Shown here: piece by piece, positions 13,723 to 39,450 of the stretch
Position numbering within the stretch: position 1 is the stretch's first letter
How the letters are laid out: each line of letters opens with the position of its first letter
NCBI RefSeq assembly: GCF_024710765.1
Contig: NZ_JANJUE010000027.1
Location: 1-49,337, forward strand
Reading direction: 5' to 3'
DNA length: 49,337 nucleotides
From: Pseudoxanthomonas sp.
GTDB lineage: Bacteria; Pseudomonadota; Gammaproteobacteria; Xanthomonadales; Xanthomonadaceae
Notes under the pieces: generated by a model
Seen by the model: only the letters and a program-made list of their open reading frames with translations
What the model was told of the DNA's origin: nothing
Databases searched by the model: none
Made by a program: the position numbers and the translations under genes

Positions 13723-13810
13723 CGGGTTGAATGCGTGCAGCCAGCGCTGCGCGCCGCAAGGGCCGCACACCGGCCGGCCGCGTGCGCCGCTGGCGGGAGT
13801 GATGCCATGA
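13715..13810 (+). CDS. 31-codon leader ORF coupled to the sugar transferase
   Basis: An ATG at 13715, four bases after AGGGGG, opens a 31-residue frame (MQDGLNACSQRCAPQ..., ending AGVMP). Its stop TGA (13808-13810) overlaps the ATG of the sugar transferase (13807-13809). The strong ribosome site plus the ATGA overlap suggests that translation of this small ORF feeds or gates the downstream start. The peptide is rich in Pro, Arg and Gly, has two Cys, and resembles no family known to me. It could be a chance frame in GC-rich DNA, although the Shine-Dalgarno quality and exact overlap argue against that. Confidence 0.5.
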   Translation: MQDGLNACSQRCAPQGPHTGRPRAPLAGVMP

Positions 13811-15204
13811 AGTCCAGTCAGGCCAGCCGCAAGGCGCGCGCCGCCCGCATCCTGTGGATCGCGGAAGTCATCGTGCTGATGGCAGCGGTGATGGCCGCGG
13901 CGTGGATCCGTTTCCACAACGAACCCGAGTACCACGTCGTCTTCGCCCAGCAGGCGCCGATCCGGGCGGTGCTGGTGGCGTTGTTCCTGACTGGCGCGAT
14001 GGCGGCCTTCGGCCTGTACCAGGTCCATGTCCGCCACACGCGGCTGGATTTCGTGCTGCGCCTGACCCTGTCGTTCGCGTTCGGCGGCATCGGCCTGGTG
14101 GTGCTGTATTACCTGATTCCGGCGACCTACATCGGCCGCGGCGTGCAGGCGATGTCGCTGGCGCTGGGCCTGGTCGGCGTCTGCCTGGTCCGGCTGGCCT
14201 GGATGCACATCTACGGCTCGGACGTGCTGAAGCAGCGGATCCTGATCTTCGGCGCCGGCAAGAATGCGGACCTGATCAATTCGCGCATGCGCCGCAAGTC
14301 GGATCGGCGCTCGTTCCTGGTGCTCGGTTTCGTGCCGGTTCCCGGCCAGCCGGTGCTGGTGCAGGAGGATCTGCTGGTGCGCCCGGGCGAGGAAGGGTTG
14401 TCCGAACTGGTCGAGCGCCTGCAGATCGACGAACTGGTCATTGCCCCGGACGAGCGCCGCGGCGGCCTGCCGATGGAAGAGATGCTTCTGTGCGTGCAGC
14501 GCGGCGTGTCGGTCGTGGACCTGTCCAGTTTCTTCGAGCGCGAGGCCGGCATGGTCCAGCTCAACGTGGTCGATCCGTCCTGGCTGGTGTTTTCCGGTGG
14601 TTTCGATTATTCGACGCCGCGGCGGTTGAGCAAGCGCTTCTTCGATCTGGCTGCGGCGCTGGCGCTGCTGTTGATCGCCTGGCCGCTGATGCTGCTGGTC
14701 GCGCTGGCGGTGTGGGTCGAATCGGGCGGGCCGATCTTCTACAGCCAGACACGGGTGGGCGAACGCGGCCGCCATTTCACCCTGACCAAGTTCCGCAGCA
14801 TGCGGGTCGACGCCGAGAAGGACGGCGTGGCGGTGTGGGCGAGCAAGGACGACGATCGCAGCACGCGGGTCGGCAAGATCATCCGCAAGACCCGCCTGGA
14901 CGAACTGCCGCAGCTGGTGGCGGTGATTCGCGGCGACATGAGTTTCGTCGGGCCGCGTCCGGAGCGCCCGCACTTCGTCGACATGCTCAATGACGAGATC
15001 CGCTACTACGGCGTCCGCCACAGCGTGAAGCCCGGCCTGACCGGCTGGGCGCAGTTGCGCTATCCCTATGGCGCCTCGGTGCGCGACGCCGAGGAGAAGC
15101 TGAAGTTCGATCTGTTCTACGTGAAGAACCACGGCCTCGTTTTCGATCTGATGATCCTGCTGCAGACGGTCGAGGTCGTGCTGTTTGGACGTGGCGCGCG
15201 CTGA
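13807..15204 (+). CDS. Polyprenyl-phosphate sugar-phosphate transferase initiating EPS synthesis
   Basis: This 465-residue membrane protein transfers a sugar-1-phosphate from a nucleotide sugar to undecaprenyl phosphate, the committed first step of repeat-unit assembly. Four N-terminal membrane helices fall within about residues 12-125. A Rossmann-like middle begins at RILIFGAGKNADLI, and another hydrophobic helix (FFDLAAALALLLIAWPLMLLV) precedes the catalytic domain. Catalytic-domain signatures are FRSMRVDAE, KTRLDELPQL, SFVGPRPERP and GLTGWAQLRYPYG. The organisation matches the XrtA/PEP-CTERM-associated transferase family (TIGR03013 type). The ATG follows GGGAG and overlaps the stop of the leader ORF. 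Sugar specificity cannot be read from the sequence. Confidence 0.92.
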   Translation: MKSSQASRKARAARILWIAEVIVLMAAVMAAAWIRFHNEPEYHVVFAQQAPIRAVLVALFLTGAMAAFGLYQVHVRHTRLDFVLRLTLSFAFGGIGLVVLYYLIPATYIGRGVQAMSLALGLVGVCLVRLAWMHIYGSDVLKQRILIFGAGKNADLINSRMRRKSDRRSFLVLGFVPVPGQPVLVQEDLLVRPGEEGLSELVERLQIDELVIAPDERRGGLPMEEMLLCVQRGVSVVDLSSFFEREAGMVQLNVVDPSWLVFSGGFDYSTPRRLSKRFFDLAAALALLLIAWPLMLLVALAVWVESGGPIFYSQTRVGERGRHFTLTKFRSMRVDAEKDGVAVWASKDDDRSTRVGKIIRKTRLDELPQLVAVIRGDMSFVGPRPERPHFVDMLNDEIRYYGVRHSVKPGLTGWAQLRYPYGASVRDAEEKLKFDLFYVKNHGLVFDLMILLQTVEVVLFGRGAR

Positions 15205-16147: not shown

Positions 16148-17168
16148 GCTGAAGGATCTCTCCAAGAAGCTTCTATACGTCAGTGGTCTGCTGGGCCTGT
16201 ACCACCGCGTGCGCAACGCGGACAGCCTGACCGTGGTGATGTTCCATCGTACCCTGAGCCCGGAGGATCCGCGCTGGCGGACCTGCGACCCGGATTACAC
16301 CCTGGCGACCCACTGGCTGGCCGATTCGCTGGCGTTTTTCCGCCGGCACTACCACGTGGTGTCGCTGGAGCAGGTGCTGGCTTCGCGCCGCGCGGGCACG
16401 CCGCTGCCACCGCGTGCGCTGTTGATCACCTTCGACGATGGCTGGGCCGACAACGCCGACTACGCGCTGCCCGAACTGCGCAAGGCCGGCCTGCCCGCAT
16501 TGATGTTCGTGGTGTCGGACGCGGTGGGCACGCGCCAGCCGTTCTTCCAGGAACGCCTGATCGCGGCGCTGCGTCGCGGTGCGTTGAAACTGGCGGATCT
16601 GGCCGCGGCGATGCAGCCGCACCTGGACGAACCCTGGCAGCCCCGCGACGAATCGCTGGGCGAACTGCGCGAGGCCATCGCGCGGTTGGAGCGCATGCCG
16701 GCGGCGGAGCGCGAGGCGGTGCTGGCGCCGTTCATGGCCGCGCTGGACGACGGCCAGCGGCACATGGTGACCGCCGCGGAACTGGAACAGCTTGCCGCCG
16801 GTGGCGTGGCTTTGGGCCTGCATGGCAAGACCCATACGCCGATGAAATTCGCGGCGGATCTGGATGCGGAGTTGTCCGGTGCACGCGCCGCGCTGGCGCG
16901 GCACCTGGGACAGCCGGCGCCCAGCGCCGAATCGATGTCCTTCCCGCATGGTTCCTTCGACGACGCGATCGCGCAACGCGCGCGTGGCGCCGGTTACGAG
17001 CTGATCTTCACCAGCGTGCCGGTGCTCAATCCGGTCGGCGACGGGGTCGGCTGGCTGCTTGGACGCACCGGTTTCGAGACCGATGCGGTGGTCGACGCGC
17101 GCGGGCGCTTCCGTCCGGACTGGCTGGCGCTCTACCTGTTCCGCAAACCGGCGCAGCGGCTGGCCTGA
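16146..17168 (+). CDS. NodB-type polysaccharide deacetylase (CE4), first of three
   Basis: This 340-residue protein carries the CE4 catalytic motif TFDDGW at 95-100 (general base and metal aspartates D97/D98) and the metal-binding HGKTH at 226-230. It probably removes N- or O-acetyl groups from the glycan or its lipid-linked repeat. There is no clear signal peptide. The hydrophobic first 20 residues (MLKDLSKKLLYVSGLLGLY) may associate with the membrane, so the site of action is uncertain. The ATG at 16146 overlaps the divergent start; a GTG at 16110 is possible but would begin upstream of the inferred transcription start. The gene converges on the GNAT gene with a 16-base gap. Confidence 0.88.
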   Translation: MLKDLSKKLLYVSGLLGLYHRVRNADSLTVVMFHRTLSPEDPRWRTCDPDYTLATHWLADSLAFFRRHYHVVSLEQVLASRRAGTPLPPRALLITFDDGWADNADYALPELRKAGLPALMFVVSDAVGTRQPFFQERLIAALRRGALKLADLAAAMQPHLDEPWQPRDESLGELREAIARLERMPAAEREAVLAPFMAALDDGQRHMVTAAELEQLAAGGVALGLHGKTHTPMKFAADLDAELSGARAALARHLGQPAPSAESMSFPHGSFDDAIAQRARGAGYELIFTSVPVLNPVGDGVGWLLGRTGFETDAVVDARGRFRPDWLALYLFRKPAQRLA

Positions 17169-17184
17169 GGCCTCGCCGCGGCGG

Positions 17185-18237
17185 TCATTCGTCTTCATCC
17201 GCCGAGGTCAGGAACCAGATCGGTTCGGTGCCGTTGGCAAGATTCCAGCGCACGAACACCGGTCGCCGGCCGCGCTCGCTGAAGCCGCTTTCGCGCCACG
17301 CCTGCAACTGGCATTCCGGCCCGGTGATCTCCACCGAGACCGAACCATGCCCGGCGGCGCGCGCGGCGGCGAGCAGGGCCAGCACATAGGCCTGCGGAAG
17401 CCCGTGCGCGCCGTTGTCGGACCAGAAGTCGCGCACGTGCAACGCGCTGTCCTCGACCTGCACCGCGAACCAGGCCTTCAGTTCCTTGCCGTCAGGCGAG
17501 GTGATCCAGAGATAGCGGGTGGTCGCCAACGGGGAATCGTCGAAGCGCCACTTGGCGTGCAGGCTGTCGCGCACCGCGAGCACGCCATCACCCTGCGACG
17601 AGGCCGACCACAGGGCGTCCATGCGCGGATCGACGCGATTGCCCCATTCGCTGCGCAGGCGCGGACCGTGCCAGCGGCGCCAGCCGTCACGGCAGGCCAC
17701 CGCGAGATCGAGCAGCCAACCGGCGGGCGAGGCGAGCCATGCGGCCGGCAGGCGCGTGCGCAGGTAGCGGGCATGGCGCAGCACGCGCGCATAGCGCACC
17801 AGATCGGTCGGATGCTGGTAGCCCATGCGCTTGAACACCGCGGCCGCCTTCGGATTGGGAAATCCGTACAGCACGTCAACCTGCTCCTTGCCGGCATCGA
17901 TCAGGCCCTGCTGCAGCATCAGCGCGGGGCCGAGCGAACGGTGTTCGGGCAGCACCGCCAGATCCACCAGCACGCCGGCGCCCAGATCGCGGCCGCGATG
18001 GCGCATCCGGCGGCGGCCGGCGCAGGCGGTGCCCACCCATTGTCCGCTGCGGGTTTCCTGCAGCAGTTGCAGCAGCGGCGGTCCGTGCGGACCGGCGAGG
18101 TAGAACCAGTCGTACTTGGCGGCGATCCGGTCGGTGCGGCCCAGATTGCCCCACCAGATCGACAGCACGGTGTCCCGGTCGCGCAGCGGATCGCCGGTGC
18201 GGACGAGATACTGGGGGGAGGGCGGGGCCTGGTTCAC
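17185..18237 (-). CDS. GNAT-like N-acyltransferase, last gene of the ACP operon
   Basis: This 350-residue protein appears to contain a GNAT fold: LVDLAVLPEHRSLGPALMLQQGLIDAG in the first half resembles the acyl-CoA pyrophosphate loop region, and a second weaker alpha/beta part follows (VEITGPECQLQAWRESGFSERGRRPVFVRW). It starts with GTG three bases after the stop of the NadE-like gene and ends the four-gene minus operon. The context suggests that it transfers an acyl group, perhaps from the acyl carrier protein of the same operon, to an amino sugar of the glycan. That role is inference; the donor and acceptor are not shown by the sequence. Confidence 0.72.
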   Translation of the reverse strand: MNQAPPSPQYLVRTGDPLRDRDTVLSIWWGNLGRTDRIAAKYDWFYLAGPHGPPLLQLLQETRSGQWVGTACAGRRRMRHRGRDLGAGVLVDLAVLPEHRSLGPALMLQQGLIDAGKEQVDVLYGFPNPKAAAVFKRMGYQHPTDLVRYARVLRHARYLRTRLPAAWLASPAGWLLDLAVACRDGWRRWHGPRLRSEWGNRVDPRMDALWSASSQGDGVLAVRDSLHAKWRFDDSPLATTRYLWITSPDGKELKAWFAVQVEDSALHVRDFWSDNGAHGLPQAYVLALLAAARAAGHGSVSVEITGPECQLQAWRESGFSERGRRPVFVRWNLANGTEPIWFLTSADEDE

Positions 18238-18240
18238 GGG

Positions 18241-19221
18241 TCAGTCCAGTTCCGGTACGTCGCCGGCCAGCACGGGCGGCATGTGCAGGTAGCGGGTGGT
18301 GCGGCGCTTGTTGCGGATGTCCTCGTAGACTGCTTCGGCCTGCGCCGGGCTCAGGCCCAGCGCGGTGGCCAGCTCGCTGGCCGGGCGATCGTGGTTGAGC
18401 GCCCACAGCGCCAGATCCATCTGCTGGTAGGGAAGGGCGAAATAGAACTCGTCCTGGCCCTGGCTGAGGCTGTAGGTATCGGTGGTGGGAATGGCGGCGC
18501 ACACGCGCTCGGGCAGCCCGAGGTGGCGAGCCATGCCATACACCTGGGACTTGTACAGGTGGGCGATGGGCTTGACGTCGGCGGCGCCGTCGCCGTTCTT
18601 GACGAAGAAACCCTGGTCGTACTCGACCCGGTTGGGCGTGCCGACCACGCCGTAGTTGAGGCGGTCGGCGTGGAAATACTCCAGGTTCTTGCGGATGCGC
18701 TGTTTGAAGTTGGTGGCCGCCACGATGGTCAGGTAGTCGGCCAGGGCCAGTTCGCGCTCGTGGCGCTGGCCATCCGGCGATTCGGCGATCAGGCGGAAGC
18801 GGTTGATGCGACCTTCGGTGCCACCGTCGATCACGATCTTGAACTTCCAGCCTTCGCCATACTCGGGCAGGGTGTTGCGCACCGCCTGGTCACGGGCGCG
18901 GTAGCAGCCGATGGCCTCCAGCGCCGGGGCGATGTCGATCGTCTCGGTGCGCACGCCCAGGTGCTCGGCGAGCAGGCGCGCGCGCACCGCGCTGTCGTCG
19001 GAGGAATCGCGTTCCGGCAGGATCAGGGTGAACACGCGATCCGGTCCGAGCGCGCGCACGGCCAGCGCGGCGCTGACCGAGCTGTCGATGCCGCCGGAGA
19101 TGGCCACGACCAGCCCGCGGCGATGCAGTTGCCGCGCGGTGATCTCGCGTAGCCGCGCGGCGATGCGGTCGGCTTCCTGTTCGTAGTCGATATCGAGGAC
19201 GTGGCGGTCGAGGCTGCTCAT
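18241..19221 (-). CDS. NAD synthase-like ATP pyrophosphatase in a biosynthetic operon
   Basis: This 326-residue enzyme has the PP-loop SGGIDSS at 42-48 and the NadE-type segments VVGTPNRVEYDQGFFVKNGDGAADVKPIAHLYKSQ (in part), VYGMARHLGLPE and DEFYFALPYQQMDLAL. The family adenylates a carboxylate and amidates it with ammonia; true NadE makes NAD from nicotinate adenine dinucleotide. Compared with ammonia-dependent NadE it is long, with about 35 extra residues around the basic stretch after position 125. It overlaps the upstream ligase gene by four bases (ATGA) and sits with an ACP and a GNAT, so a role in amidating a polysaccharide acyl substituent is as likely as NAD synthesis. There is no glutaminase domain. 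Confidence 0.82.
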   Translation of the reverse strand: MSSLDRHVLDIDYEQEADRIAARLREITARQLHRRGLVVAISGGIDSSVSAALAVRALGPDRVFTLILPERDSSDDSAVRARLLAEHLGVRTETIDIAPALEAIGCYRARDQAVRNTLPEYGEGWKFKIVIDGGTEGRINRFRLIAESPDGQRHERELALADYLTIVAATNFKQRIRKNLEYFHADRLNYGVVGTPNRVEYDQGFFVKNGDGAADVKPIAHLYKSQVYGMARHLGLPERVCAAIPTTDTYSLSQGQDEFYFALPYQQMDLALWALNHDRPASELATALGLSPAQAEAVYEDIRNKRRTTRYLHMPPVLAGDVPELD

Positions 19222-20726
19222 GGCGTTGCGGTCTGCTCCATCAGTTGGAAGCGTCGCACCTTGCCCGAAGCGGTCCGGGGCAGGGTGTCGACGAAGGTGA
19301 CTTGGCGGGGAATCTTGTAGGGGGCGAGGCGGGCGCGGCAGTGCGCCTTGATGCGGTCCTCGGCGCGGGGCGGAAGCTCGCCGGCGGCAACGACGAACGC
19401 GCGGATGACCTGGCCCATCACTTCGTCGTCCACGCCCACCACCGCGACTTCGCGGACGACGGGCAGTTCGGCGATGACTTCCTCGACGTCGGTGGGATGC
19501 ACGCGATGGGCGCCGGTCTTGATCATGTCGCTGCGGCGGCCCTGCAGGAACAGGAAGCCGTCGGCGTCCAGATGGCCGAGATCCCCGGTGTGCAGCCAGC
19601 CCTCGCGCAGCACCTGCGCGGTGGCCTCGGGATTGTTCCAGTAACCGGCCATCACGTTGGGGCCGCGCACGCAGACCTCGCCGCTTTCGCCGGGCGCGGC
19701 GGCGCTGCCGTCCTCGCGCTGGATCCGCCACTGCACGCCGGCCACGGGAATGCCGACCGAACCGAGCTTGTCGTCCAGTCGTTCCGGCGGCAGCCAGCTG
19801 ATCCGCGAAGTGGCCTCGGTCTGTCCGTACATCACGTACAGGCGCGGCGTGGGCAGCCGTTCGCGCAGTTGGCCGGTCAGCGCGGGCGACATCGCGCCGC
19901 CGGCCTGGGTGAGGTAGCGCAGCGAGGCCAGCGGGCGTTCGCGCTGCGCGAGTGGTTCCAGCAACAGCGCGAACGTGGAGGGCACGCCCGAAAAACCGGT
20001 TGCTTCGGCCTGTTCGATCGCGTCCAGCACCAGGTGCGGGAACATCAGGCCGGGCCCGAGCACCACGCAGCCGCCGCTGATGAGATGGGTGTGCAGGACC
20101 GACGCGCCGTAGGCGTAGTAGAACGGCAGCACGCTCAGAACCCGATCCGAGGCGTCCAGCGCCAGGTAGTCCACGATCGCCTGCGCGTTGGCCAACAGGT
20201 TGGCATGGGTGAGCATCACGCCCTTGGGCGCGCCGGTGGTGCCGGAGGTGTACAGGATCACCGCCAGATCGGATGCTTCGGGCAGCAGCGCGGCCGGCAG
20301 CGGTTCGTCCACCGCGTCGTCGACCAGCGCCCGGCCGTCCTCCAGCACCGTCGTCGCGGCAATGGAGGGCAGTTGCGCGACCGCGTCGACGGTATCGCGA
20401 TGCGCGCTTTCATGCACGACGTGGCGCGCACCGCAGTGCTGCAGCCACGGCAGGAAATCGCGCAGGCGCGCCTGTGCGTTCAAGGGCACCACCACGCCGC
20501 CGGCCAGCCAGGCGCCGTAGCAGGCGACCGCGGCCTCGATGCGGTTGGGCAGGATGATCGCCACCCGGTCGCCGGTTTGCAGGCCGCGGTCGCGCAGGTG
20601 CGCGGCGAACCGGCGCGCCTGCCGCCAGAAGCCGGCGTAGTCGACCCGGCGTTCGCCGTCGATCAGGGCCAGGCGGGCGGGCGCATCGCGTGCGACGCGT
20701 TCGACCCGGGTGCAGAGGGTTTCCAT
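19218..20726 (-). CDS. AMP-forming acyl-CoA/acyl-ACP ligase (ANL family)
   Basis: This 502-residue adenylating enzyme has the P-loop YTSGTTGAPKG at 159-169, YGQTEAT as the adenine-binding motif, TGDLGHLD before the hinge and the catalytic lysine K489 in the C-terminal ASGKVRR. It activates a carboxylic acid as the acyl-AMP and loads it onto a thiol. A separate acyl carrier protein gene ends 10 bases upstream, making ACP the obvious acceptor. It resembles the ligase that accompanies exosortase A EPS loci (TIGR03098 type). The acid it activates is unknown. Confidence 0.92.
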   Translation of the reverse strand: METLCTRVERVARDAPARLALIDGERRVDYAGFWRQARRFAAHLRDRGLQTGDRVAIILPNRIEAAVACYGAWLAGGVVVPLNAQARLRDFLPWLQHCGARHVVHESAHRDTVDAVAQLPSIAATTVLEDGRALVDDAVDEPLPAALLPEASDLAVILYTSGTTGAPKGVMLTHANLLANAQAIVDYLALDASDRVLSVLPFYYAYGASVLHTHLISGGCVVLGPGLMFPHLVLDAIEQAEATGFSGVPSTFALLLEPLAQRERPLASLRYLTQAGGAMSPALTGQLRERLPTPRLYVMYGQTEATSRISWLPPERLDDKLGSVGIPVAGVQWRIQREDGSAAAPGESGEVCVRGPNVMAGYWNNPEATAQVLREGWLHTGDLGHLDADGFLFLQGRRSDMIKTGAHRVHPTDVEEVIAELPVVREVAVVGVDDEVMGQVIRAFVVAAGELPPRAEDRIKAHCRARLAPYKIPRQVTFVDTLPRTASGKVRRFQLMEQTATP

Positions 20727-20736
20727 CGGCGCGGGA

Positions 20737-20985
20737 TCAGCCGGCCCGCTTGCGGGTGACGAAATCGTCGACCGTCTGGATGGTGTCGAAATTGGCGGGC
20801 GTCATTTCCTCCGGGACGATCTGCAGCTTGAATTGATCTTCCAGGAAGAAAATCAGTTCGTGGATGCCGGTCGAATCGATGATGCCGCCGCGGATGAGCG
20901 AGTCCTGATCCCCGATGGCGGAGGGATCATCCGAGAACAGGAAATTCTCCAGGATGAACTGCTTGATCTGTTGCTTCTGTTGCAT
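20737..20985 (-). CDS. Free-standing acyl carrier protein
   Basis: This 82-residue protein is acidic overall and has the carrier-protein helix-II motif GGIIDSTGIHELIFFLEDQF, with S38 as the predicted phosphopantetheine site (DST in place of the usual DSL/DSM). It is the first gene of the minus operon with the ANL ligase, NadE-like enzyme and GNAT. GGGGA precedes the ATG at 20985; an in-frame upstream start adds a proline-rich non-family extension and is rejected. It is not the fatty-acid ACP, which is normally beside fab genes, so it likely presents a special acyl group for glycan decoration. A phosphopantetheinyl transferase must act from elsewhere. Confidence 0.88.
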   Translation of the reverse strand: MQQKQQIKQFILENFLFSDDPSAIGDQDSLIRGGIIDSTGIHELIFFLEDQFKLQIVPEEMTPANFDTIQTVDDFVTRKRAG

Positions 20986-21065
20986 GGGGATCCCCTGTGG
21001 CTGTTTCGCTTGCTGCCATTGAAAACGCAAGCCCCGTGGGCATCCGGCCAGTCCGTACGGCGGCG

Positions 21066-21093
21066 TTGGCGGAGCGGGTGGCGGTGTTACCAT
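21066..21093 (+). promoter_or_regulatory. Candidate promoter of the sugar dehydrogenase gene
   Basis: TTGGCG (21066-21071) and TACCAT (21088-21093) are 16 bases apart, 32 bases before the chosen ATG. The match is moderate and may be chance. Confidence 0.3.
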
Positions 21094-21124
21094 CGCGCCC
21101 GTCGCCATGCCGGGGAAGCCCACG

Positions 21125-22315
21125 ATGCGTCGTCTGTCACTGGTCCTGCTGCTGGGAGTGGCGGCCTGCCGCCAGGAGGCGCCCGCACCCGCCGTGCAGC
21201 CGCACGTGGTCCGCGACGCCGCGCCGGTGCAGTACGCGTCCGAGAAGGGCGCTTACACCGTGACCGAACTGGTGACCGGCCTGGAACACCCCTGGGCGCT
21301 GGCCTTCCTGCCCGACGGCGGCCTGCTGGTCAGCGAGCGCCCGGGCCGCCTGCGCCGGATTGGCGCGGACGGCCAGGTGTCGCCGCCCATCGCCGGGTTG
21401 CCCGGGATCTTCGTCGACGGCCAGGCCGGCCTGCTGGACGTGGCGCTGTCGCCGCAGTTCACCCGCGACAAGTGGGTCTACCTGGCGTTCGCCGAGCCGA
21501 CCTTCCGTGGCAACAAGGCCGGCACCGCGGTGGCGCGCGGGCGGTTGGAAGGCGACGTCCTGAAGGACGTGGAGGTGGTGTACCGGCAGGAGCCCAAGCT
21601 CTCGCATGGCACCCATGTCGGCGCGCGGCTGGTGTTCGACGACGCCGGCCACCTGTTCGTCACCCAGGGCGACAACCGGGTGGCCGCGGCCGCCGCGCAG
21701 GAACTGGACAAGCTGCAGGGCAAGCTGGTGCGGATCTGGCCGGACGGGCGGATACCGGACGACAACCCGTTCGCGGGCAAGGCCGGCGCGCGCCCGGAAA
21801 TCTGGTCCTACGGCCATCGCAACATGCAGGGCGCGGCGTTGCATCCGGTCACCCGCGCGCTGTGGACCAGCGAACACGGCCCGCAGGGCGGGGATGAAAT
21901 CAACCTGCCGCAGGCCGGCGCCAACTATGGCTGGCCGCTGGCCACCCATGGCATCGACTACAGCGGCAAGCCGGTGCCGGGTGCGCGCGGACGCAGCGTG
22001 CCGGGCATGCAGGATCCGCATTACGTCTGGGAGAAGTCGCCGGCCGTGAGCGGGATGGCGTTCTATACCGGCGGCCTGTTCCCGCAATGGCAGGGCAACC
22101 TGTTCCTGGGCGCGCTGGCGGCCAAGCAGCTCATCCGGCTGGAACTGGACGGCGACAAGGTCGTGCACGAGGAGCGGCTGCTGGGCGAACGCAACCAGCG
22201 CATCCGCGACGTGCGCCAGGGGCCGGATGGCGCGTTGTACGTGCTGGTGGATGCGCCGGACGGCAAGCTGCTGCGGATCGCGCCGCCGGCGGGCACCGCC
22301 GCACCGGGCGGCTAG
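21125..22315 (+). CDS. PQQ-dependent aldose dehydrogenase-like lipoprotein
   Basis: This 396-residue protein is a six-bladed beta-propeller of the soluble glucose dehydrogenase/YliI (Asd) type, which oxidises aldoses to lactones with PQQ in the periplasm. Family landmarks are GLEHPWALAFLPDGGLLVSERPGRL near the start, HGTHVGARLVF, YGHRNMQGAALHP and EHGPQGGDEINL. A lipobox ending VAAC (C15) after MRRLSLVLLLG predicts a lipoprotein. The ATG at 21125 has GGGGAAG six bases upstream; an ATG 18 bases earlier would lengthen the signal. It stands alone on the plus strand between two minus operons and its stop shares CTAG with the convergent methyltransferase. Its connection to EPS synthesis is unclear. 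Confidence 0.88.
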   Translation: MRRLSLVLLLGVAACRQEAPAPAVQPHVVRDAAPVQYASEKGAYTVTELVTGLEHPWALAFLPDGGLLVSERPGRLRRIGADGQVSPPIAGLPGIFVDGQAGLLDVALSPQFTRDKWVYLAFAEPTFRGNKAGTAVARGRLEGDVLKDVEVVYRQEPKLSHGTHVGARLVFDDAGHLFVTQGDNRVAAAAAQELDKLQGKLVRIWPDGRIPDDNPFAGKAGARPEIWSYGHRNMQGAALHPVTRALWTSEHGPQGGDEINLPQAGANYGWPLATHGIDYSGKPVPGARGRSVPGMQDPHYVWEKSPAVSGMAFYTGGLFPQWQGNLFLGALAAKQLIRLELDGDKVVHEERLLGERNQRIRDVRQGPDGALYVLVDAPDGKLLRIAPPAGTAAPGG

Positions 22316-23274
22316 ACCGCGGCGGCCACCGCCGGTACCGCCGCCGCGGCCGGCTTGCGGGCGATGAAATCCACGCTGGTGATGCACAACTGTTCCGGCG
22401 GGATGGCGGCGAACTGCGGATGCACCGGGGTCGCGGCGAGCTGGCGCAGGCGTTCCGGGCGCGCGTTCGAGGTGTCCAGGACGATGGCGAATCCAAGGTC
22501 GCGGGCGTCGTCGACGAAGCGATGCGCGCGCAGCCGGTTCTGGTAGAGGAAGGCGTTGTTCCAGCGCTGCCATTGCCGATCCGAATAGCGCAGGTAGTGC
22601 AACTGGTGGATCTCGCGATCCACGTAGGCGTAGTGGTCGCCGCAGTTGACCGAATGGAACATGACCCCGCCGGGTGCGAGGATCCGCATCGCCTCGCGGT
22701 ACATCGCGCCGATCACTTCCGGCGGCACGTGTTCCAGCACGCTGTTGGAGAACACCACGTCGACTTCGCCGTCGCCCAGGGTGGTGCGGGTGGCGTCGGC
22801 CGGCGCGCGGTACTGGACCACGCCGTCGGTGGCCGTTTCCAGCGAATCGCCGGCCAGCAGGCGGTTGCGCAGGCGCAGGTAGCGCTCGCGCACCGCGTGG
22901 GGATCGGCGCCGCCGGCTTCGGCGATGCGCGGCAGGAATTTTTCCAGGGTGGCGACGCAGCGTTCGGTCAGATCGCGGCGCAGGTGGGTGTTCAGATCGT
23001 AGGTGGTGACCCGCGCCGCGCCGGCCAGGTAGCAGGCGAACGGGAACGTGGGATACCAGCCGGTGCCGATTTCGAAGCCGCGCATGCCGGCGAAGGGATG
23101 GCCGGCGTCGCGCAGGTGCCCGGCCATGATCGCCCAGTCGTCGATCTTCACCGACAGTTCGCGCTCGAAGTCCTGCAGGCCGCCGAACTGGCGCTGCAGG
23201 TGGAAATGCAGGGTATGGCCGCCGGGCAGGTATCCCAGCACCTTCTGGACCATTCCTTTGACTCGCCAGTGCAT
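22312..23274 (-). CDS. SAM-dependent class I methyltransferase
   Basis: This 320-residue protein has the SAM-binding motif FEIGTGWYP at 67-75 and the post-II segment VDVVFSNSVLEHVPPEVI, followed by an APGG-type motif (RILAPGGVMFHSVN). It probably methylates a sugar hydroxyl or a carboxylate of the repeat unit. It is the third gene of a minus operon with the GT4 and the amidotransferase, starting 27 bases after the amidotransferase stop. The C-terminal tail is alanine/proline-rich. Its stop codon TAG lies within a CTAG that is also the stop of the convergent gene. Confidence 0.87.
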   Translation of the reverse strand: MHWRVKGMVQKVLGYLPGGHTLHFHLQRQFGGLQDFERELSVKIDDWAIMAGHLRDAGHPFAGMRGFEIGTGWYPTFPFACYLAGAARVTTYDLNTHLRRDLTERCVATLEKFLPRIAEAGGADPHAVRERYLRLRNRLLAGDSLETATDGVVQYRAPADATRTTLGDGEVDVVFSNSVLEHVPPEVIGAMYREAMRILAPGGVMFHSVNCGDHYAYVDREIHQLHYLRYSDRQWQRWNNAFLYQNRLRAHRFVDDARDLGFAIVLDTSNARPERLRQLAATPVHPQFAAIPPEQLCITSVDFIARKPAAAAVPAVAAAV

Positions 23275-23301
23275 GTCGGCTCCGTGATCGGGTGTGGGCG
23301 C

Positions 23302-25296
23302 TCAGGCCGCGGGGACCGCCAGCGGCGCGTCGGCGTCGCGATGGGCGGTGGGGGCGGTACGCGCTTCGTTGAGCTGGCGATGCACCAGCAGGGTGGAGAG
23401 GATGCCGACGAACGCCTGGTTGTCGGCGAAGCCGGTGGCGCGGCCCTGCCGGCATTTTTCCACCAGCCGCGAGACCGCCTGCGGTTCGAAGTAGCCGGCG
23501 TCACGGACCGACGCGGGCGCCAGCAGTTCGGCCACGTAGTCCAGCGGTTTTCCGTCGAAGAAGAAGCTCTGGCTGTCCGGCGCGCGATAGGGCTGCTTGG
23601 TCCGCTGCACGATGTCGGCCGGCAGCAGATCGGCAAGCGCGCGGCGCAGCAGGTACTTCTCGGTCATGCCGCGGATCTTGAAGCTGGGCGGCAGCCGGTT
23701 GGCGAATTCGATGACCCGGTGATCCAGGTAGGGGAAGCGCCCTTCGATGGAGTTCGCCATCGCCACCCGATCCCCCTGCGAGGACAGCAGGTAGCCGGCC
23801 AGCAGCGACTTGGCTTCCACGTACTGGTCGCGGGCCAGCGGGCTCCAGTCCATGATGCCCGGTGGCAGGGTCTGCTCGTAGGCATCCAGCGGATCCCAGC
23901 TGGAGGAGGCCGCGCGCAGATCCGGCGACAGGAACGCCAGCGCGCGCTGCGAGGTCGTCCAGCGCGGCACGTGGGCGAACACCGGGCGGTGCAGGTGTTC
24001 CATGCCCTGGCCGAAGAACGACTGGGCGAAGCCCGGATGGCTGACCGGCGAATTGCGCAGGTATCCGTACAGGCGTTCCAGCAGGCGCGGGCGCAGGCGC
24101 GAATCCGGTTGCCGCGCCCAGAACCGGCGCACCTTGGCTTCCTTGAACAGATCGTAGCCGCCGAACACCTCGTCGGCGCCTTCGCCGGTGAGCACCACCT
24201 TGTAGCCGTGCTCGCGCACGCTGCCGGCCAGCAGCATCAGCGGCACCGGCGCGGTGCGCAGCACCGGGGTCTCGGTATGGCGGATCAGGCGCGGGAAGGC
24301 TTCGCCGATGTCGCGGCGGGTGCAGCGCAGGGTGGTGTGATCGGTGCCGAGATGGCGGACCATCGCCTGCTGGTGTTCGCTCTCGTCGAACTCGCCGTCC
24401 TCGAATGCGACCGAGAAGGTGCGTACCGGCGTGTCGGTGAATCCCTTGATCAACGCGACGATGCCGGAGGAATCCAGGCCGCCGCTGAGGTAGGCGCCAA
24501 CCGGCACGTCGGCGCGCAGTTGCAGGCGAACGGCGTCGACCAGCAGGTCGCGCAGTTCGGCGGTGGCCTGTTCCACCGACAGCGGATAGCGCGAGGGCGA
24601 GGTGTCGGCGGCGTCGGGGAATTCCCAGTTCCAGTACGTGCGCAGGTGCTGGCTGCCGTCGGCCTCGATGCTCAGCAGGCAACCCGGCGGCAGGCTCTGC
24701 ACGCCGTCGTACAGGGTGTCCGGATCCACCGGCGCCCAGTAGGTGAGGGTCTGCATCAGCGCGCGCGGATTGAGCTGCGCGCATTCGGGCAGCACCGCCA
24801 GCAACGATTTCACTTCCGAGGCGAACCACACCCGGCCGTGCCGGTGCGCGTGGTACAGCGGGCGGATGCCGGCGCGGTCCCGCGCCAGCACCAGCCGCCG
24901 GCGTTCGCCGTCCCACAGGGCGATCGCGAACTGACCGTTGAGATGCTGGACGAAATCATCGCCGTAGCGGTCGTACAGATGTACGATCACTTCGGTGTCG
25001 GAGTGGGTGTAGAAGCGGTGGCCGCGGGCTTCCAGATCCCGCCGCAGTTCCACGTAGTTGAAGATCTCGCCGTTGAACACCGTCCACACGGTGCGGCGCT
25101 CGTTGTGGATCGGCTGGTCGCCGGTGGCCAGGTCGATGATCGACAGCCGCGCATGCGCCAGCGCCGCGCCGGGCTCGGCGTGGAAGCCGAAGCCGTCCGG
25201 GCCGCGGTGGACCAGCGGATGGATCATCCGCTCCAGCGTGCCGCGCGCGTCGTCGGGCCTGACATCCGCGCCGCTGAAGCCTGCGATTCCGCACAT
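23302..25296 (-). CDS. Asparagine synthase-like glutamine amidotransferase
   Basis: This 664-residue two-domain enzyme resembles AsnB. The N-terminal glutaminase domain starts with the obligatory Cys2 (MCGIAGF) and has HARLSIID and FNGEIFNY; the synthetase domain has the PP-loop SGGLDSS at 271-277 and GEGADEVFGG at 371-380. In EPS/O-antigen clusters such proteins (for example the exosortase A-associated amidotransferase, TIGR03108 type, and WbpS-like proteins) are thought to convert uronic acid carboxyls to amides. AGGAG precedes the ATG. A much longer open frame continues upstream but overlaps the GT4 gene in another frame and is not coding. The substrate is inferred, not shown. Confidence 0.9.
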   Translation of the reverse strand: MCGIAGFSGADVRPDDARGTLERMIHPLVHRGPDGFGFHAEPGAALAHARLSIIDLATGDQPIHNERRTVWTVFNGEIFNYVELRRDLEARGHRFYTHSDTEVIVHLYDRYGDDFVQHLNGQFAIALWDGERRRLVLARDRAGIRPLYHAHRHGRVWFASEVKSLLAVLPECAQLNPRALMQTLTYWAPVDPDTLYDGVQSLPPGCLLSIEADGSQHLRTYWNWEFPDAADTSPSRYPLSVEQATAELRDLLVDAVRLQLRADVPVGAYLSGGLDSSGIVALIKGFTDTPVRTFSVAFEDGEFDESEHQQAMVRHLGTDHTTLRCTRRDIGEAFPRLIRHTETPVLRTAPVPLMLLAGSVREHGYKVVLTGEGADEVFGGYDLFKEAKVRRFWARQPDSRLRPRLLERLYGYLRNSPVSHPGFAQSFFGQGMEHLHRPVFAHVPRWTTSQRALAFLSPDLRAASSSWDPLDAYEQTLPPGIMDWSPLARDQYVEAKSLLAGYLLSSQGDRVAMANSIEGRFPYLDHRVIEFANRLPPSFKIRGMTEKYLLRRALADLLPADIVQRTKQPYRAPDSQSFFFDGKPLDYVAELLAPASVRDAGYFEPQAVSRLVEKCRQGRATGFADNQAFVGILSTLLVHRQLNEARTAPTAHRDADAPLAVPAA

Positions 25297-25321
25297 CGTC
25301 CGGGTCTCCTGGGTAGCGGGA

Positions 25322-26506
25322 TCAGGTGGAGCCGGCGGCGTACAGCGCGCGCTCGCCCCGGGCTTCGGCCAGCACTTCCTCGCAGGCCAGCAGGGTGTCC
25401 TGGGCGACCTGGCGCCAGTCGCGCGAGAACCGGCGGGCCAGCGCGGCCTCGTCCCATTCGCGCTCCAGCGCCTGGCGCAGGCCGTCGGCCAGCGCGGCCG
25501 GATCGCGCACCGGCACCAGCACGCCGCTGGCGTCGTCGACCACTTCGGGAATGCCGCCCACCGGGGTGGCGACCACCGGCCGGCCGCAGGCCAGCGCCTC
25601 GACCAGCACGTTGGGGTGGCCTTCGGAATAGCTGGGCAGGGTGACCAGATCGGACGCGCACATCCAGCGCGCGACCTCCGCCGGCGGGCGGGTGCCGGCG
25701 AAGCGCACCGGCAGATCGCCGGCCGCGGCCAGCGCCGCCAGTTCCGCATGCATCGGGCCTTCCCCCACCAGCACCAGTTGCAGGCGCGGGCGGGAGGCGC
25801 GCAGCTGGCCGGCGGCGACCAGCAGTTCGCGCAGGCCCTTTTCCGGCACCAGCCGGCCCACGTAGGTGACCACTTCGGCGTCCGCGGGCAGATCCAGCGC
25901 CCGCCTGGCCTCGGCGCGGTCGGCCGGATGGAAGATGGACGCATCGCAGCCGTTGGGGATGGCGCGGATGCGGTCCGGGTCTGCGCCGTAGTCGCGCTCG
26001 GCGACCCGGCCCAGGTCCTCGCTGACCACCAGCAGGCGGCGGGCGGCGTGCAGCACGGGGCGGGTCAGGCGGCGGCTGATGGCGTCGCGCACGCGCAGAT
26101 CCGAGCCGCGCGCGCCGACCACCAATGGCGCGCCGATCCGGCGCGCGGCCAGCATCGCGCCGTAGGCGTCGGGATACAGCCAGTAGGACAGCACCAGGTC
26201 CGGGGCGAAGGCGCGCATGGGCGCGGCGATGGCGCGCGCGCACAGGCGGCCGTTGAACGGACGGCTGACGGCGGGCAGGGCGGGGTAGCGCACGTACTCG
26301 ACATCGCAGCCGGGCACGTCATGGTGCTCGTCCGAGGCCCGGTACAGGTAACTGCGCGGTTGCGCCCAGCGCGGGTAGCTGGCGACCGGGCTGATCACCC
26401 GCACCTGCGCCAGCCGCGAAAGCTCGCGCACGGTCTGGTAGATCGGGCGGCCGCGGTTGGGCTCGCCGGCAATCGGGAACTGCGAAGTGACGATCAGCAG
26501 CCGCAT
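25322..26506 (-). CDS. Family 4 glycosyltransferase
   Basis: This 394-residue GT-B enzyme begins MRLLIVTSQFP, carries VVGARGSDLRV in the N-terminal domain, and has the GT4 donor-binding segment SEGHPNVLVEALACGRPVVAT with the E-x7-E pattern in the C-terminal domain. It probably extends the lipid-linked repeat. It is the first gene of the minus operon with the amidotransferase and the methyltransferase, and shares a 94-base divergent upstream region with the acyltransferase gene. That region contains an overlapping TATA motif readable on both strands (26561-26568). Confidence 0.9.
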   Translation of the reverse strand: MRLLIVTSQFPIAGEPNRGRPIYQTVRELSRLAQVRVISPVASYPRWAQPRSYLYRASDEHHDVPGCDVEYVRYPALPAVSRPFNGRLCARAIAAPMRAFAPDLVLSYWLYPDAYGAMLAARRIGAPLVVGARGSDLRVRDAISRRLTRPVLHAARRLLVVSEDLGRVAERDYGADPDRIRAIPNGCDASIFHPADRAEARRALDLPADAEVVTYVGRLVPEKGLRELLVAAGQLRASRPRLQLVLVGEGPMHAELAALAAAGDLPVRFAGTRPPAEVARWMCASDLVTLPSYSEGHPNVLVEALACGRPVVATPVGGIPEVVDDASGVLVPVRDPAALADGLRQALEREWDEAALARRFSRDWRQVAQDTLLACEEVLAEARGERALYAAGST

Positions 26507-29874: not shown

Positions 29875-30975
29875 TCAGTCGTCGTGGCCGAGCCGGTAGG
29901 CCAGCGGCCGCAGCGCACGTGCCGCCGACAGCCAGCGGTTGGCCGTGGTGCCCGCGGCGAGGATCCCGGACACCATGATCTGCTGATCCGGCAGCAGTTC
30001 GGCCAGGTAGGAATTCTCCCGCGCCTGGCTGTCGAACTGGCGCAACTGCGGCCAGCGCGCGTTCATCGCCTCGAACAACTGCCACTCGTTGATGCGGCCG
30101 GGGCTGGCCTGGCGGTATTCGGGATCCCAGCCGGTCTTGAAGCCGCTGAGCACCTGGCCCGACATCAGGTTGCTGGTCGAGGCGATCACCCGTCCGGCGC
30201 ACAGTGTTTCCACGAACACCAGCGTACCGGTCGGCGCCAGCCGCGCCGCCATCTCCAGGAAGAATCCGCGCTGGGCCGGACTGGCGTGCAGGGAACTGCC
30301 GGCGTCGCCCTTCCAGCCGGCGTGTTCGAGGGCGAGATGGCGCTCGGCCGCGGCCTGATCCGCATCGGCGCCCTGCAGGATGCGGGTGGCCACCTCGCCC
30401 TGATCCTGCAGGCGGCGCAGGCGCCGGCGCAGATCCTTGAGCACCGAACCGCGCATGCGCGCGGTGGTGGAGACACCGGCGCGCGTGCGCAGCACCGGAC
30501 GCTGGAAGCGCCGGGTTTCGTGCCATTGCAGGCGCGGATCGCGGGTGGCCCACAGCGCGGCCGACAGCGGACATTCGGCGACCAGGTTGTGCAGCAACAG
30601 CACCGGTGCGGGGGAGCGTGGCTGCGCCATCAGGTCGATCACCGCCGCGGCCACCGTCTCGGCGGCGCCGGGCGCGTGCAGCAGGCCGGACTGGAAGGCA
30701 TGCGCGTGCCGGTAGGCGCGCCAGTGCGGCAGCGGCACGAACAGGTTGGGGCGCCGATGCTCCAGGCAGGCCAGGCCGATCAGCGCATCATCCTCGCCGC
30801 GCACGCGCAGCAGCGACGGCGGTGCCTGCGGCGTCAGCCAGCGCACCGCCGCCTGCACGAATCCCGGCATCAGGAAGGGATTGGACGACGCGCTGGCGCG
30901 GGCCAGCGTTTCCCATTCCGCGAAGTCACCGGCCTGCAGGCTTTTCCAGTCATCCAGGGTGACCGTCGCGGTCAT
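29875..30975 (-). CDS. CelD/BcsL-type (FemAB-like) acetyltransferase, second of tandem pair
   Basis: This 366-residue protein resembles the CelD/BcsL double-GNAT proteins (acetyltransf_6 type). Recognisable parts are the SSNPFLMPGFVQAAVRW opening (in many members NPFxSPxWxxAW), the middle lysine/arginine helix RGSVLKDLRRRLRRL, and the C-terminal domain VETLCAGRVIASTSNLMSGQVLSGFKTGWDPEYRQASPG (in part). Such proteins accompany EPS and exosortase A loci (FemAB, TIGR03019 type) and probably transfer an acyl or aminoacyl group. Its ATG overlaps the stop of the upstream paralogue by four bases (ATGA). Confidence 0.82.
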   Translation of the reverse strand: MTATVTLDDWKSLQAGDFAEWETLARASASSNPFLMPGFVQAAVRWLTPQAPPSLLRVRGEDDALIGLACLEHRRPNLFVPLPHWRAYRHAHAFQSGLLHAPGAAETVAAAVIDLMAQPRSPAPVLLLHNLVAECPLSAALWATRDPRLQWHETRRFQRPVLRTRAGVSTTARMRGSVLKDLRRRLRRLQDQGEVATRILQGADADQAAAERHLALEHAGWKGDAGSSLHASPAQRGFFLEMAARLAPTGTLVFVETLCAGRVIASTSNLMSGQVLSGFKTGWDPEYRQASPGRINEWQLFEAMNARWPQLRQFDSQARENSYLAELLPDQQIMVSGILAAGTTANRWLSAARALRPLAYRLGHDD

Positions 30976-32099
30976 GCCGGCACGGTCCCGTGCCGGCGGC
31001 CGCGCATCGCGTCCATCAGGCGCGTGCGCAGACCCACGCGATCCACCGACAGCCAGGCCATGCGCCCCTCGGCCATCGCCAGCACGCGCTTGTAGTCCAT
31101 CTCGCCGGCCATCAGTTCGTAGCGCCGATGTCCTTCCTGGACGGCGTTCTGCACGGCTTCGGTCAACAGCAGCAGGCCGGGGCTGCCGCAGTCGCCGATG
31201 CGCGGATAGTCGATGCCCGCCTGGTAGAAACAGACCACGCCGCGCGAGATCAGGTGATAGAGATAGCCTGCCACGTGCCCACCGGCCTCGAAGCGCAGCA
31301 ACTGCGCGCCGTGGTCCGGTTGCGAGGCGGCGATCAGCCGGCGATGGAAGGCGATGATGCGGGGATCGGCGAACGCGCCCTGTTCGCCGGCCTCGGCGGT
31401 CCAGTGGGCCTGGTGCAGCGCGACCAGGCCATCGAAGAACGCCAGGCGTTCTTCCGTCGTGGTGGCCACGTCGATTTTCAGTTCGCCCCAGCGCTCGCCC
31501 AGCTTGCGCGCGGTACGGCGCACGCGGGCGCGGGTGTTGCGTCCCAGCACGCTCGACAGGTACAGGCCGTGGTCCTCGCGCAGGCCGGTCAGGTCGATGT
31601 AGGGCGTCGGCCGCTTGAACATGCGCAGGCGCAGGTTGGGCGCGCGCAGTTGTTCCAGCGGAATGCGATCGACCTCGATGCCCGGCAGGAACAGGGTCAG
31701 CCAGTGGCGTTCATGACGATGCAGGTGATCCACGAACGCGACCAGGGTTTCGCTTTCCAGTCCGGTTTCGCTGAGCAGGCCGTTGAACTCGATGGTCAGG
31801 CTGTCGAGCGCGCGGTCACCGACCTGGTGCAGGCGCAGGTGGGTCGGACCCAGGCCCAGGAAGCGCCGGCGCGCCGTGACGATGCCCAGGCCGACCAGGC
31901 GCTTGTCCAGATAGACCGAGGCCAGGCGTGCGTTCCGGCGCGGGCAGATCATCTCCAGCCAGGTGCCGATCCAGATCCAGCTGAGGAACACGCTGCATTG
32001 CGAGCGGCTTTCCAGTTCTTCCCAGCGTTGGCGCAGGAGATCCAGATCCGGCAGTGGTTCCAGGCGAACGTCGAACGAGCGGGTGGCGGGCGAGAGCAT
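30972..32099 (-). CDS. CelD/BcsL-type (FemAB-like) acetyltransferase, first of tandem pair
   Basis: This 375-residue protein has the same architecture as its downstream neighbour: FLSWIWIGTWLEMI near the start, the basic helix NTRARVRRTARKLGERWG, and a C-terminal GNAT half with GHVAGYLYHLISRGVVCFYQAGIDYPRIGDCGSPG (in part). The two are diverged paralogues rather than a recent duplication, because the DNA is not obviously repeated. The start is uncertain: ATG 32099 has a weak GAGAAA site, whereas a GTG at 32144 would add 15 residues without a ribosome site. It is separated from the upstream fusion gene by about 135 bases. Confidence 0.82.
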   Translation of the reverse strand: MLSPATRSFDVRLEPLPDLDLLRQRWEELESRSQCSVFLSWIWIGTWLEMICPRRNARLASVYLDKRLVGLGIVTARRRFLGLGPTHLRLHQVGDRALDSLTIEFNGLLSETGLESETLVAFVDHLHRHERHWLTLFLPGIEVDRIPLEQLRAPNLRLRMFKRPTPYIDLTGLREDHGLYLSSVLGRNTRARVRRTARKLGERWGELKIDVATTTEERLAFFDGLVALHQAHWTAEAGEQGAFADPRIIAFHRRLIAASQPDHGAQLLRFEAGGHVAGYLYHLISRGVVCFYQAGIDYPRIGDCGSPGLLLLTEAVQNAVQEGHRRYELMAGEMDYKRVLAMAEGRMAWLSVDRVGLRTRLMDAMRGRRHGTVPA

Positions 32100-38154: not shown

Positions 38155-39450
38155 ATGTTCTTTTTCTTGTTGGTGTATCTGGCGCTGGTGATCATCCGGC
38201 CCCAGGATTATCCGGCGATTGCCGAAAACCCCGGACCGCCGTTGCAGTCGATCGCGCTGCTGGCGGCGGCCGGCCTGTGGGTGTTCTCCGCGCGCAAGTC
38301 GTTCTCCGCGCCGCAGTACCTGCTGATTCCGTGCTTCCTGCTCGTAGCCATGTTCTCCAAGGTGGTGAACGGCTGGCCGGGTGGCGCGCTGTTCGTGTTC
38401 TTCATCTTCGCCCCGGTGCTGTTGGCCTATGTGTTGCTGGCCAACGCCGCCAGCACCCGCGAGCGGCTGGAGACGGTGATGGCGGTGCTGACGATCTGCG
38501 CGGGCGTGCTGGCGCTGCACGGCGTGGAGCAGGCAACGATCGGGATGGGCTGGACCGGAGTGGAGCTGTCCCAGGGCACCCGCATCCAGTACGTCGGCAT
38601 CTTCAACGATCCCAACGACCTGGGCCTGCTGTTCGTCATGTGCCTGCCGATGGCGTTCTACCTGGGCGCGCGCGGCGGCTTGATGGGGTTGCGCCGGCTG
38701 TTCTGGCTGCTGGTGGCGGGCTTGCTGATCTATGGCTGCTACCTGACCAACTCCCGTGGCACCCTGTTGGCGCTGGTCGCGCTGCTGGGCGTGTACGTAT
38801 GGCGCAAGCGCGGCATCTTCACCGCCGGCCTGCTCGGGGTCGCGGCGCTGGGCGGGCTGATGATGCTGCCTTCGCGCCTGCAGGACATGGAGGTGTCCGA
38901 AGCCTCGGCGATGGGTCGCGTGGATTCCTGGTACGAAGGCATCCAGATGTTCATCGGCAATCCGGTGTTCGGCATCGGCGCCGGCGGCTACTCGGACCTG
39001 CACGAGCTGACCGCGCACAATTCCTTCGTGCTGGTGCTGGCCGAGCTGGGCATCATCGGTTTCACCCTGTGGCTGGCCATCGTCGGCTACAGCTTCCGGA
39101 TGATGCTGGCGCCGCTGCGGCGCGGCGACGACATCATCAACGACGTGCCGCCCGAGGTGCCGGACGAGGTGGCGCTGGCCGAGTGGCACAAGGACCGGGC
39201 GCTGACCCTGACCCTGCTGATGTCGCTGAGCGGCTTCATCACCGCGGCCTTCTTCCTCAGCCGCAGCTACGTGATCATCCTGTACCTGCTGATCGCGATC
39301 GTGGTCGCCCACTACACGCGCCTGCGCGAGGTCTATCCGAGCCTGCCGGCCTTCAGCCTGGACAAGGACCTGCTGCGCTGGCCGATCTATTCCGTAATCG
39401 GCGTTATCGGCCTGTACGTGATGGTCAAGGTACTCCTGGCAATGGCATGA
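38155..39450 (+). CDS. O-antigen ligase/polymerase-like membrane protein (Wzy/WaaL superfamily)
   Basis: This 431-residue protein has around ten to twelve hydrophobic helices and the large periplasmic loop of the O-antigen ligase superfamily. The motif GIFNDPNDLGLLFVMCLPMAFYL matches the family signature, as in the O-glycosylation ligase of exosortase A loci (TIGR03097 type). YSDLHELTAHNSFVLVLAELGIIG carries the conserved histidine of the H-N-x-F/Y segment. It may polymerise repeat units (Wzy role) or transfer them to an acceptor. AGGGG precedes the ATG. The next gene overlaps its stop by four bases (ATGA). Confidence 0.88.
   Translation: MFFFLLVYLALVIIRPQDYPAIAENPGPPLQSIALLAAAGLWVFSARKSFSAPQYLLIPCFLLVAMFSKVVNGWPGGALFVFFIFAPVLLAYVLLANAASTRERLETVMAVLTICAGVLALHGVEQATIGMGWTGVELSQGTRIQYVGIFNDPNDLGLLFVMCLPMAFYLGARGGLMGLRRLFWLLVAGLLIYGCYLTNSRGTLLALVALLGVYVWRKRGIFTAGLLGVAALGGLMMLPSRLQDMEVSEASAMGRVDSWYEGIQMFIGNPVFGIGAGGYSDLHELTAHNSFVLVLAELGIIGFTLWLAIVGYSFRMMLAPLRRGDDIINDVPPEVPDEVALAEWHKDRALTLTLLMSLSGFITAAFFLSRSYVIILYLLIAIVVAHYTRLREVYPSLPAFSLDKDLLRWPIYSVIGVIGLYVMVKVLLAMA

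Follow-up and report, generated by a model that had tools for sequence, protein, structure and literature searches.

A putative carrier-protein amidation cassette around a NadE-like gene in a polysaccharide locus of Pseudoxanthomonas sp.

Why would a protein of the nicotinamide adenine dinucleotide (NAD) synthase family be encoded beside a free-standing carrier protein in a polysaccharide locus? This question is raised by a stretch of 49,337 nucleotides from Pseudoxanthomonas sp. (NCBI RefSeq assembly GCF_024710765.1, contig NZ_JANJUE010000027.1, positions 1 to 49,337), the whole of which is called the window here and which belongs to an assembly of 443 contigs that is 99.88% complete. Four of its minus-strand genes encode a carrier protein of the acyl carrier protein (ACP) or peptidyl carrier protein (PCP) type, an ANL ligase, a NadE-like protein and a GNAT-type transferase. 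What the NadE-like protein forms is probably not NAD but an amide, on a building block bound to the carrier, since its gene adjoins those of its own carrier, a loading enzyme and a second, AsnB-like, amide-forming enzyme. The proteins and sites that carry the argument are the following.

17185..18237, minus strand: predicted tandem-GNAT N-acyltransferase, 350 amino acids (Pfam, structure model with a pLDDT of 95.4, Foldseek)
18241..19221, minus strand: putative NadE-like amide synthetase of the PRK00876/NF002048 subfamily, 326 amino acids (PRK00876 475.7 bits, cut-off 313)
18733..18909, minus strand: family-specific stretch, NadE-like residues 105-163 (alignment to 20 NAD synthases; predicted strands at 126-158)
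19078..19101, minus strand: PP-loop ISGGIDSS, NadE-like residues 41-48 (S42, G43, G44, D46 and S47 common to NAD synthases)
19218..20726, minus strand: ANL-superfamily acyl ligase, 502 amino acids (AMP-binding 6.1e-89; TIGR03098 below cut-off)
20737..20985, minus strand: free-standing carrier protein (ACP/PCP), 82 amino acids (NCBIfam matches, nearest solved structure)
20872..20874, minus strand: codon of Ser38, the expected phosphopantetheine attachment site, in IIDSTG (no variation at D37 and S38 among 29 aligned ACPs)
23302..25296, minus strand: AsnB-like glutamine amidotransferase, 664 amino acids, starting MCGIAGF (TIGR01536 501 bits, over cut-off)

The conserved gene set

The four genes are closely packed, with 10 bases between the ACP and ligase genes, an ATGA overlap of the ligase and NadE-like genes at 19218-19221 and 3 bases between the NadE-like and GNAT genes. 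This layout had been proposed in a sequence-only reading of the window, and the coordinates, the Asp-Ser-Thr at ACP residues 37-39 and the Pfam and NCBIfam matches all agree with it. A consensus scan of positions 17000-25400 yielded no promoter-like site, and three terminator-like sites against 3.4 expected.

The same reading would have been refuted had the four genes failed to co-occur in relatives. A genome scan for relatives of the NadE-like gene gave at least 555 places, of which the best 80 loci, a selection biased toward near relatives, were kept; the nearest relatives among these 80 are from Pseudoxanthomonas. Genes at these loci were called with codon models, and earlier calls, which were mixed with antisense shadow frames, were discarded. 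The two sets of loci (L037-L093 and L094-L173) overlap in part (e.g., L041 and L150), so that combined counts over 103 loci are not independent and the 80-locus counts are used. Counts out of 65 concern those of the 80 loci that reach far enough upstream, the 15 with short upstream sequence being excluded. On either strand the ACP gene was found near the NadE-like gene in all 65, the ligase and AsnB-like genes in 59 each, and all three together in 53. When the same strand was demanded, the numbers for the 64 loci with 6 kb of upstream sequence were 60 (ACP), 56 (ligase) and 54 (AsnB-like). A further set of 40 genome stretches around the NadE-like gene, read by tblastn, contained the ACP in 39, the ligase in 35 and the GNAT in 22, and with the window added to make 41 stretches, 37 held the AsnB-like protein. 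The pairing of ACP and NadE-like genes also occurs in records titled Betaproteobacteria, Deltaproteobacteria and Myxococcota. ACP, ligase and NadE-like genes do therefore stay together across genera and phyla, whereas the GNAT gene is near in only 40 of the 80 loci. The AsnB-like protein, which had been overlooked, belongs to the conserved set. We are confident that the ACP, ligase, NadE-like and AsnB-like genes constitute a conserved module that is separate from NAD synthesis.

In Pfam the carrier protein is matched by PP-binding_2 alone, below threshold (E 0.079), and its best NCBIfam matches, ACP_for_OlsHI (59 bits, cut-off 130) and then AmcB, are all below their cut-offs. Its Asp-Ser at the carrier serine is invariant (29 of 29 aligned ACPs), and the closest solved structures are amino-acid carrier proteins, the nearest being a PCP (2my5). 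The strongest sign of the partnership comes from whole genomes. In the class search, which covered 369 genomes including that of the window, ACP profile hits of at least 112 bits were obtained in exactly the 17 genomes with a NadE-like gene over the PRK00876 cut-off and in none of the 352 others; in all 17 the strong hit lies on the contig of the NadE-like gene, at a distance of a few kilobases or less. The profiles used (A2, for the ACP, and A4) were made from cassette genes, so that their scores favour cassette members, and with the genomes also being related, a Fisher value for this genome-wide pairing is indicative only. Six of the 17 strong hits (G335, G074, G105, G137, G410 and G196) are absent from A2 and still score 116.6-131.2 bits, although G137 has a congener inside A2. 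In one further class genome, G197, the NadE-like match is fragmentary, interrupted by an inner stop and below the cut-off, and no ACP of the cassette type is listed; this genome was excluded from the 17.

Some loci hold more than one carrier. In L150 (4858-6211) and its relatives a second carrier stands beside a gene resembling β-ketoacyl-ACP synthase III (KAS III) and another protein that looks GNAT-like by eye. L048 and L050 each have two carrier sets, AsnB-ACP-PrmC-like and ACP-ligase-NadE-GNAT, plus a ligase on the opposite strand.

The NadE-like protein and the separate NAD synthase

The NadE-like protein exceeds not only the cut-off of PRK00876/NF002048, a model named "NAD(+) synthase," but also those of TIGR00552 (143.6 bits, cut-off 63.65) and PF02540 (161.3 bits, cut-off 21), the Pfam NAD_synthase match having an E-value of 2.8e-47. 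It remains below the equivalog PRK13980 (175 bits, cut-off 255). By score it is a member of the PRK00876/NF002048 subfamily, although its genome context argues against the NAD synthesis that the name implies. The closest structure by fold is Pyrococcus NadE (2e18; VIA Z 27.3, root-mean-square deviation (rmsd) 2.5 over 244 residues), followed by a Francisella protein (3fiu; VIA Z 26.9, rmsd 2.9 over 231 residues). As the 3fiu entry is named nicotinamide mononucleotide (NMN) synthetase, the NadE family seems able to change its substrate.

For the active site, an alignment was made of 23 NadE-like proteins and 20 NAD synthase domains, the latter taken from genomes in which a NadE-like gene is present as well. 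At least 90% conserved in each of the two sets are S42, G43, G44, D46 and S47 of the PP-loop, N171, R175, R177, T195, E200, G210, D211, K224 and D257, a pattern which, together with the PP-loop fold, fits a working ATP-pyrophosphatase. Many other positions conserved in NadE are changed. While NadE has no long insertion between the synthetase halves, residues 105-163 of the NadE-like protein, 59 in number, face a segment of 14-15 in the 20 NAD synthases, leaving approximately 45 extra residues between the halves, and positions such as Y107, W125, K128 and Y163 within this stretch are invariant.

The sequence-only reading would have fallen had this gene been the only NAD synthase of the genome with a fully conserved active site. 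The genome contains, however, a second, full-length NAD synthase match on another contig (C56, E 1.3e-69, open frame of 571 amino acids); in the same search the NadE-like protein of the window appears as a split match. A second NAD_synthase match was likewise found in 25 of 25 other PRK00876-bearing genomes checked, in 24 of them at full length. These 25 come from 41 such genomes, i.e., 16 from the class search and 24 from the search of relatives (61 genomes, own genome counted), all over the cut-off, and G197 with its fragment, which was kept among those checked. Of the 61 genomes in the search of relatives, 25 score above the PRK00876 cut-off, as do 17 of the 369 class genomes (own genome in both), a patchy spread which marks the NadE-like gene as accessory. 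What it shares with NadE and with 3fiu is the fold and the ATP-pyrophosphatase residues; it differs in the extra residues, the changed positions, the constant carrier neighbour and the separate NAD synthase match. The control archaeon, Methanosarcina acetivorans, also exceeded the PRK00876 cut-off in both searches.

Proposed chemistry and its rivals

As an ANL enzyme the ligase is complete; it is related to TIGR03098 but below the cut-off of that model (366.7 bits, cut-off 592.35), and the nearest structures by sequence are feruloyl-CoA, oxalate-CoA and succinylbenzoate-CoA ligases. The window encodes another AMP-forming ligase elsewhere (40997-42337), which is of PaaK/DVU_1553 type and below cut-offs. 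The GNAT is matched weakly by sequence (PF00583, E 1.2e-4, 22.8 bits, cut-off 20.7); its predicted structure is a tandem GNAT, with best Foldseek matches that include GNAT acetyltransferases (Eis2) and N-myristoyltransferases. Both Eis2 and N-myristoyltransferases acylate amines. An apparent NadE-GNAT fusion in L172 (10001-11989, one frame of 663 amino acids) was rejected as evidence, because the joining stretch, which by eye resembles neither family, looks like a frame change.

We propose that the ligase would adenylate a small acid and attach it to the free-standing carrier. The NadE-like protein, with an NAD synthase fold and probably a different substrate site, would adenylate the free carboxylate of the carrier-bound acid and subsequently amidate it. 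The AsnB-like protein, with its glutaminase domain, could supply the ammonia or make a second amide, e.g., on a uronic acid, and a sugar amine would then receive the amidated acyl group from the carrier through the action of the tandem GNAT. Such a cassette, amidating on the carrier and decorating a surface polysaccharide, is the most likely single reading, to which we give somewhat less than an even chance; its steps, acid and acceptor are our proposals. Still more tentatively, this widespread NadE-fold family, whose annotation reads NAD(+) synthase, may consist of carrier-protein-dependent amide synthetases, whose amide is N-methylated by a PrmC-like enzyme in some lineages and whose product is transferred to a surface sugar by the tandem GNAT.

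The PrmC-like enzyme enters this scheme through the neighbours of the NadE-like gene. In 18 of the 80 loci, two of which are truncated where the contig ends, the cassette includes a PrmC/HemK-like methyltransferase gene, and 16 of these 18 have it immediately upstream of the NadE-like gene. Four such proteins, from loci other than the 80, were scanned; all are over the cut-off of TIGR00536 (hemK_fam), and score 191-195.5 bits with TIGR03534, whose cut-off of 199.1 is not reached. PrmC methylates the side-chain amide of glutamine, and a PrmC-like neighbour therefore fits a carboxamide product. The amidated product suggested by the sequence-only reading is favoured by these genes in some cassettes; that the amide is formed on an ACP-bound acyl group is what we infer. 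A PrmC-like profile (E 1e-60 or better, at most six candidates scored per genome) gave two strong hits in the 369 class genomes, both in NadE-like positive genomes and both from proteins included in the profile, and one partial hit of 241 bits in a genome without a NadE-like match. Small hints at the chemistry may also come from a KAS III-like gene in 7 of the 80 loci and from a family in 3 of the 80 which, judged by its member in two other loci, is methylmalonyl-CoA epimerase- or glyoxalase-like.

Several observations weigh against amidation on the carrier. The AsnB-like enzyme could form the amide alone. In the PrmC-like proteins the NPPY motif is replaced by APPY, SPPY or IPPY in 7 of the 17 readable ones of the 80 loci (7 of 22 across all loci gathered), which weakens the argument for an amide. 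The ACP profile also gives weaker hits, of 44-73 bits, in 15 class genomes that have no NadE-like gene over the cut-off. No ligase gene is nearby in 6 of the 65 loci, which leaves the loading of the carrier unexplained there; at 5 of the 6 its position is taken by the PrmC-like gene, and in L118, one of the five, a ligase gene and a carrier gene are located farther off on the opposite strand. The GNAT gene is lacking near the NadE-like gene in half of the 80 loci. Finally, NAD synthesis is itself compatible with the sequence, since PF02540 and TIGR00552 are above their cut-offs.

Alternatively, the AsnB-like and NadE-like enzymes may both amidate sugar carboxylates to uronamides, as WbpS does, with ACP, ligase and GNAT adding an unrelated acyl group and the two activities linked by nothing except one polymer. 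This explanation, unlikely in our view yet the strongest of the alternatives, draws on the ties of the TIGR03108 relatives WbpS and WbqG to the making of uronamide (PMC7468200) and on the AsnB-like protein, which matches TIGR03108 over nearly its whole length (a longer upstream frame was scanned). The score of 431.7 bits is, however, below the cut-off of 816.9 expected of a WbpS, and the NadE-like gene tracks the ACP type genome for genome, more tightly than a loose link through the polymer predicts.

It seems improbable that the NadE-like protein is an amide ligase, one that takes an amine in place of ammonia and couples the acid to an amino sugar or an amino acid. The many changed NadE positions and the family-specific stretch would suit such an enzyme, and where the GNAT is not nearby another joining enzyme may be needed, but the PrmC-like neighbours indicate a primary amide and we know of no characterised NadE-family enzyme that takes another amine. 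Similarly improbable is a lipid or small molecule as the product. In its favour, the two best carrier matches, both below cut-off, are to ACPs of ornithine-lipid and cispentacin formation; against this stand the glycosyltransferase-like and flippase-like genes and the EpsB_2-type gene around the cassette, and a deacetylase-like gene in 9 of the 80 loci. A role of the NadE-like protein as an additional NAD synthase supporting the locus, which its scores over PF02540, TIGR00552 and PRK00876 and its nearest folds would permit, is highly improbable given the patchy spread, the ACP adjoining it in each over-cut-off class genome and the other NAD synthase match in each genome checked.

The polysaccharide setting and what the cassette may mean

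The following neighbours belong to the setting of the cassette.

13807..15204, plus strand: EpsB_2-type sugar-phosphate transferase, polysaccharide context (TIGR03013 536 bits, cut-off 393.35)
21125..22315, plus strand: sorbosone-dehydrogenase-like gene, probably a bystander (TIGR03606, below cut-off)
22312..23253, minus strand: class I methyltransferase between the AsnB-like and ACP genes (found in close relatives, 8 of 80 loci)

The AsnB-like and class I methyltransferase genes form a minus-strand unit of their own, separated from the ACP operon by the plus-strand sorbosone-dehydrogenase-like gene. The locus also holds glycosyltransferase-, flippase-, polysaccharide-deacetylase- and FemAB-like proteins, several of them below curated cut-offs; the deacetylase-like gene near other NadE-like genes was recognised by eye. 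The FemAB-like proteins are two adjacent Acetyltransf_6 proteins (window 29875-32099), possible amino-acyl transferases of the VimA kind. One frame (window 32235-34310) combines a Gfo/Idh/MocA oxidoreductase with a nucleotide-sugar epimerase-like domain, and an O-ligase-like protein (window 38155-39450) scores 64.8 bits with the exosortase-A-associated TIGR03097 (cut-off 188.1).

The sequence-only reading had brought exosortase loci into the comparison. No exosortase match (PF09721, E 0.001) was found in the own genome or in 36 congeners, so that the term exosortase locus does not fit here. The locus resembles the XrtA clusters for extracellular polysaccharides in its EpsB_2, over cut-off, and in a ligase and an AsnB-like protein related to TIGR03098 and TIGR03108; it differs in having these two below cut-off and in the missing exosortase match. 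In the class sample, an exosortase match was present in 12 of 17 other NadE-like genomes (G197 included) vs. 114 of 351 without (Fisher p 0.0026, uncorrected for relatedness; the own genome, NadE-like positive and exosortase negative, excluded). The exosortase lies within 16 kb of the NadE-like match on the same contig in 5 of the 17, and contig breaks may hide others.

The closest described system that we found is the Wbp/Vim linking-sugar pathway of P. gingivalis. According to PMC7468200, a uronamide is formed there by WbpS, an amidotransferase of AsnB type, and the sugar concerned is proposed to receive an amino acid from VimA; when the WbpS homologue PGN_1234 is deleted the uronamide is lost, and the authors remark on similar genes in exosortase loci. 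The logic shared with the cassette is that of an AsnB-type amidotransferase and a GNAT-type transferase acting on an amino sugar, whereas the term "acyl carrier" is absent from the main text of that paper and the AsnB-like protein of the cassette is below the TIGR03108 cut-off. Two sections of the NAD synthase survey PMC3376133 describe no such cassette, and no published description of it was recognised in the literature searched, a scope that most subscription journals fell outside.

The cassette is also reminiscent of butirosin-type and D-alanylation tailoring, in which a free-standing carrier, a loading ligase, on-carrier tailoring and a transferase act together. Those systems decarboxylate or simply transfer, whereas an amide would be formed here by a NadE-fold enzyme. 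If this proposal is true, the family that goes by the name NAD(+) synthase, with at least 555 places in a single genome scan, would be misnamed and would carry a new type of carrier-bound chemistry, and metabolic models that count these genes as NAD synthases would be misled. It would also predict that extracellular polysaccharides bear amide groups or, in certain lineages, N-methylamide groups as well, with a defined gene set in which this can be tested.

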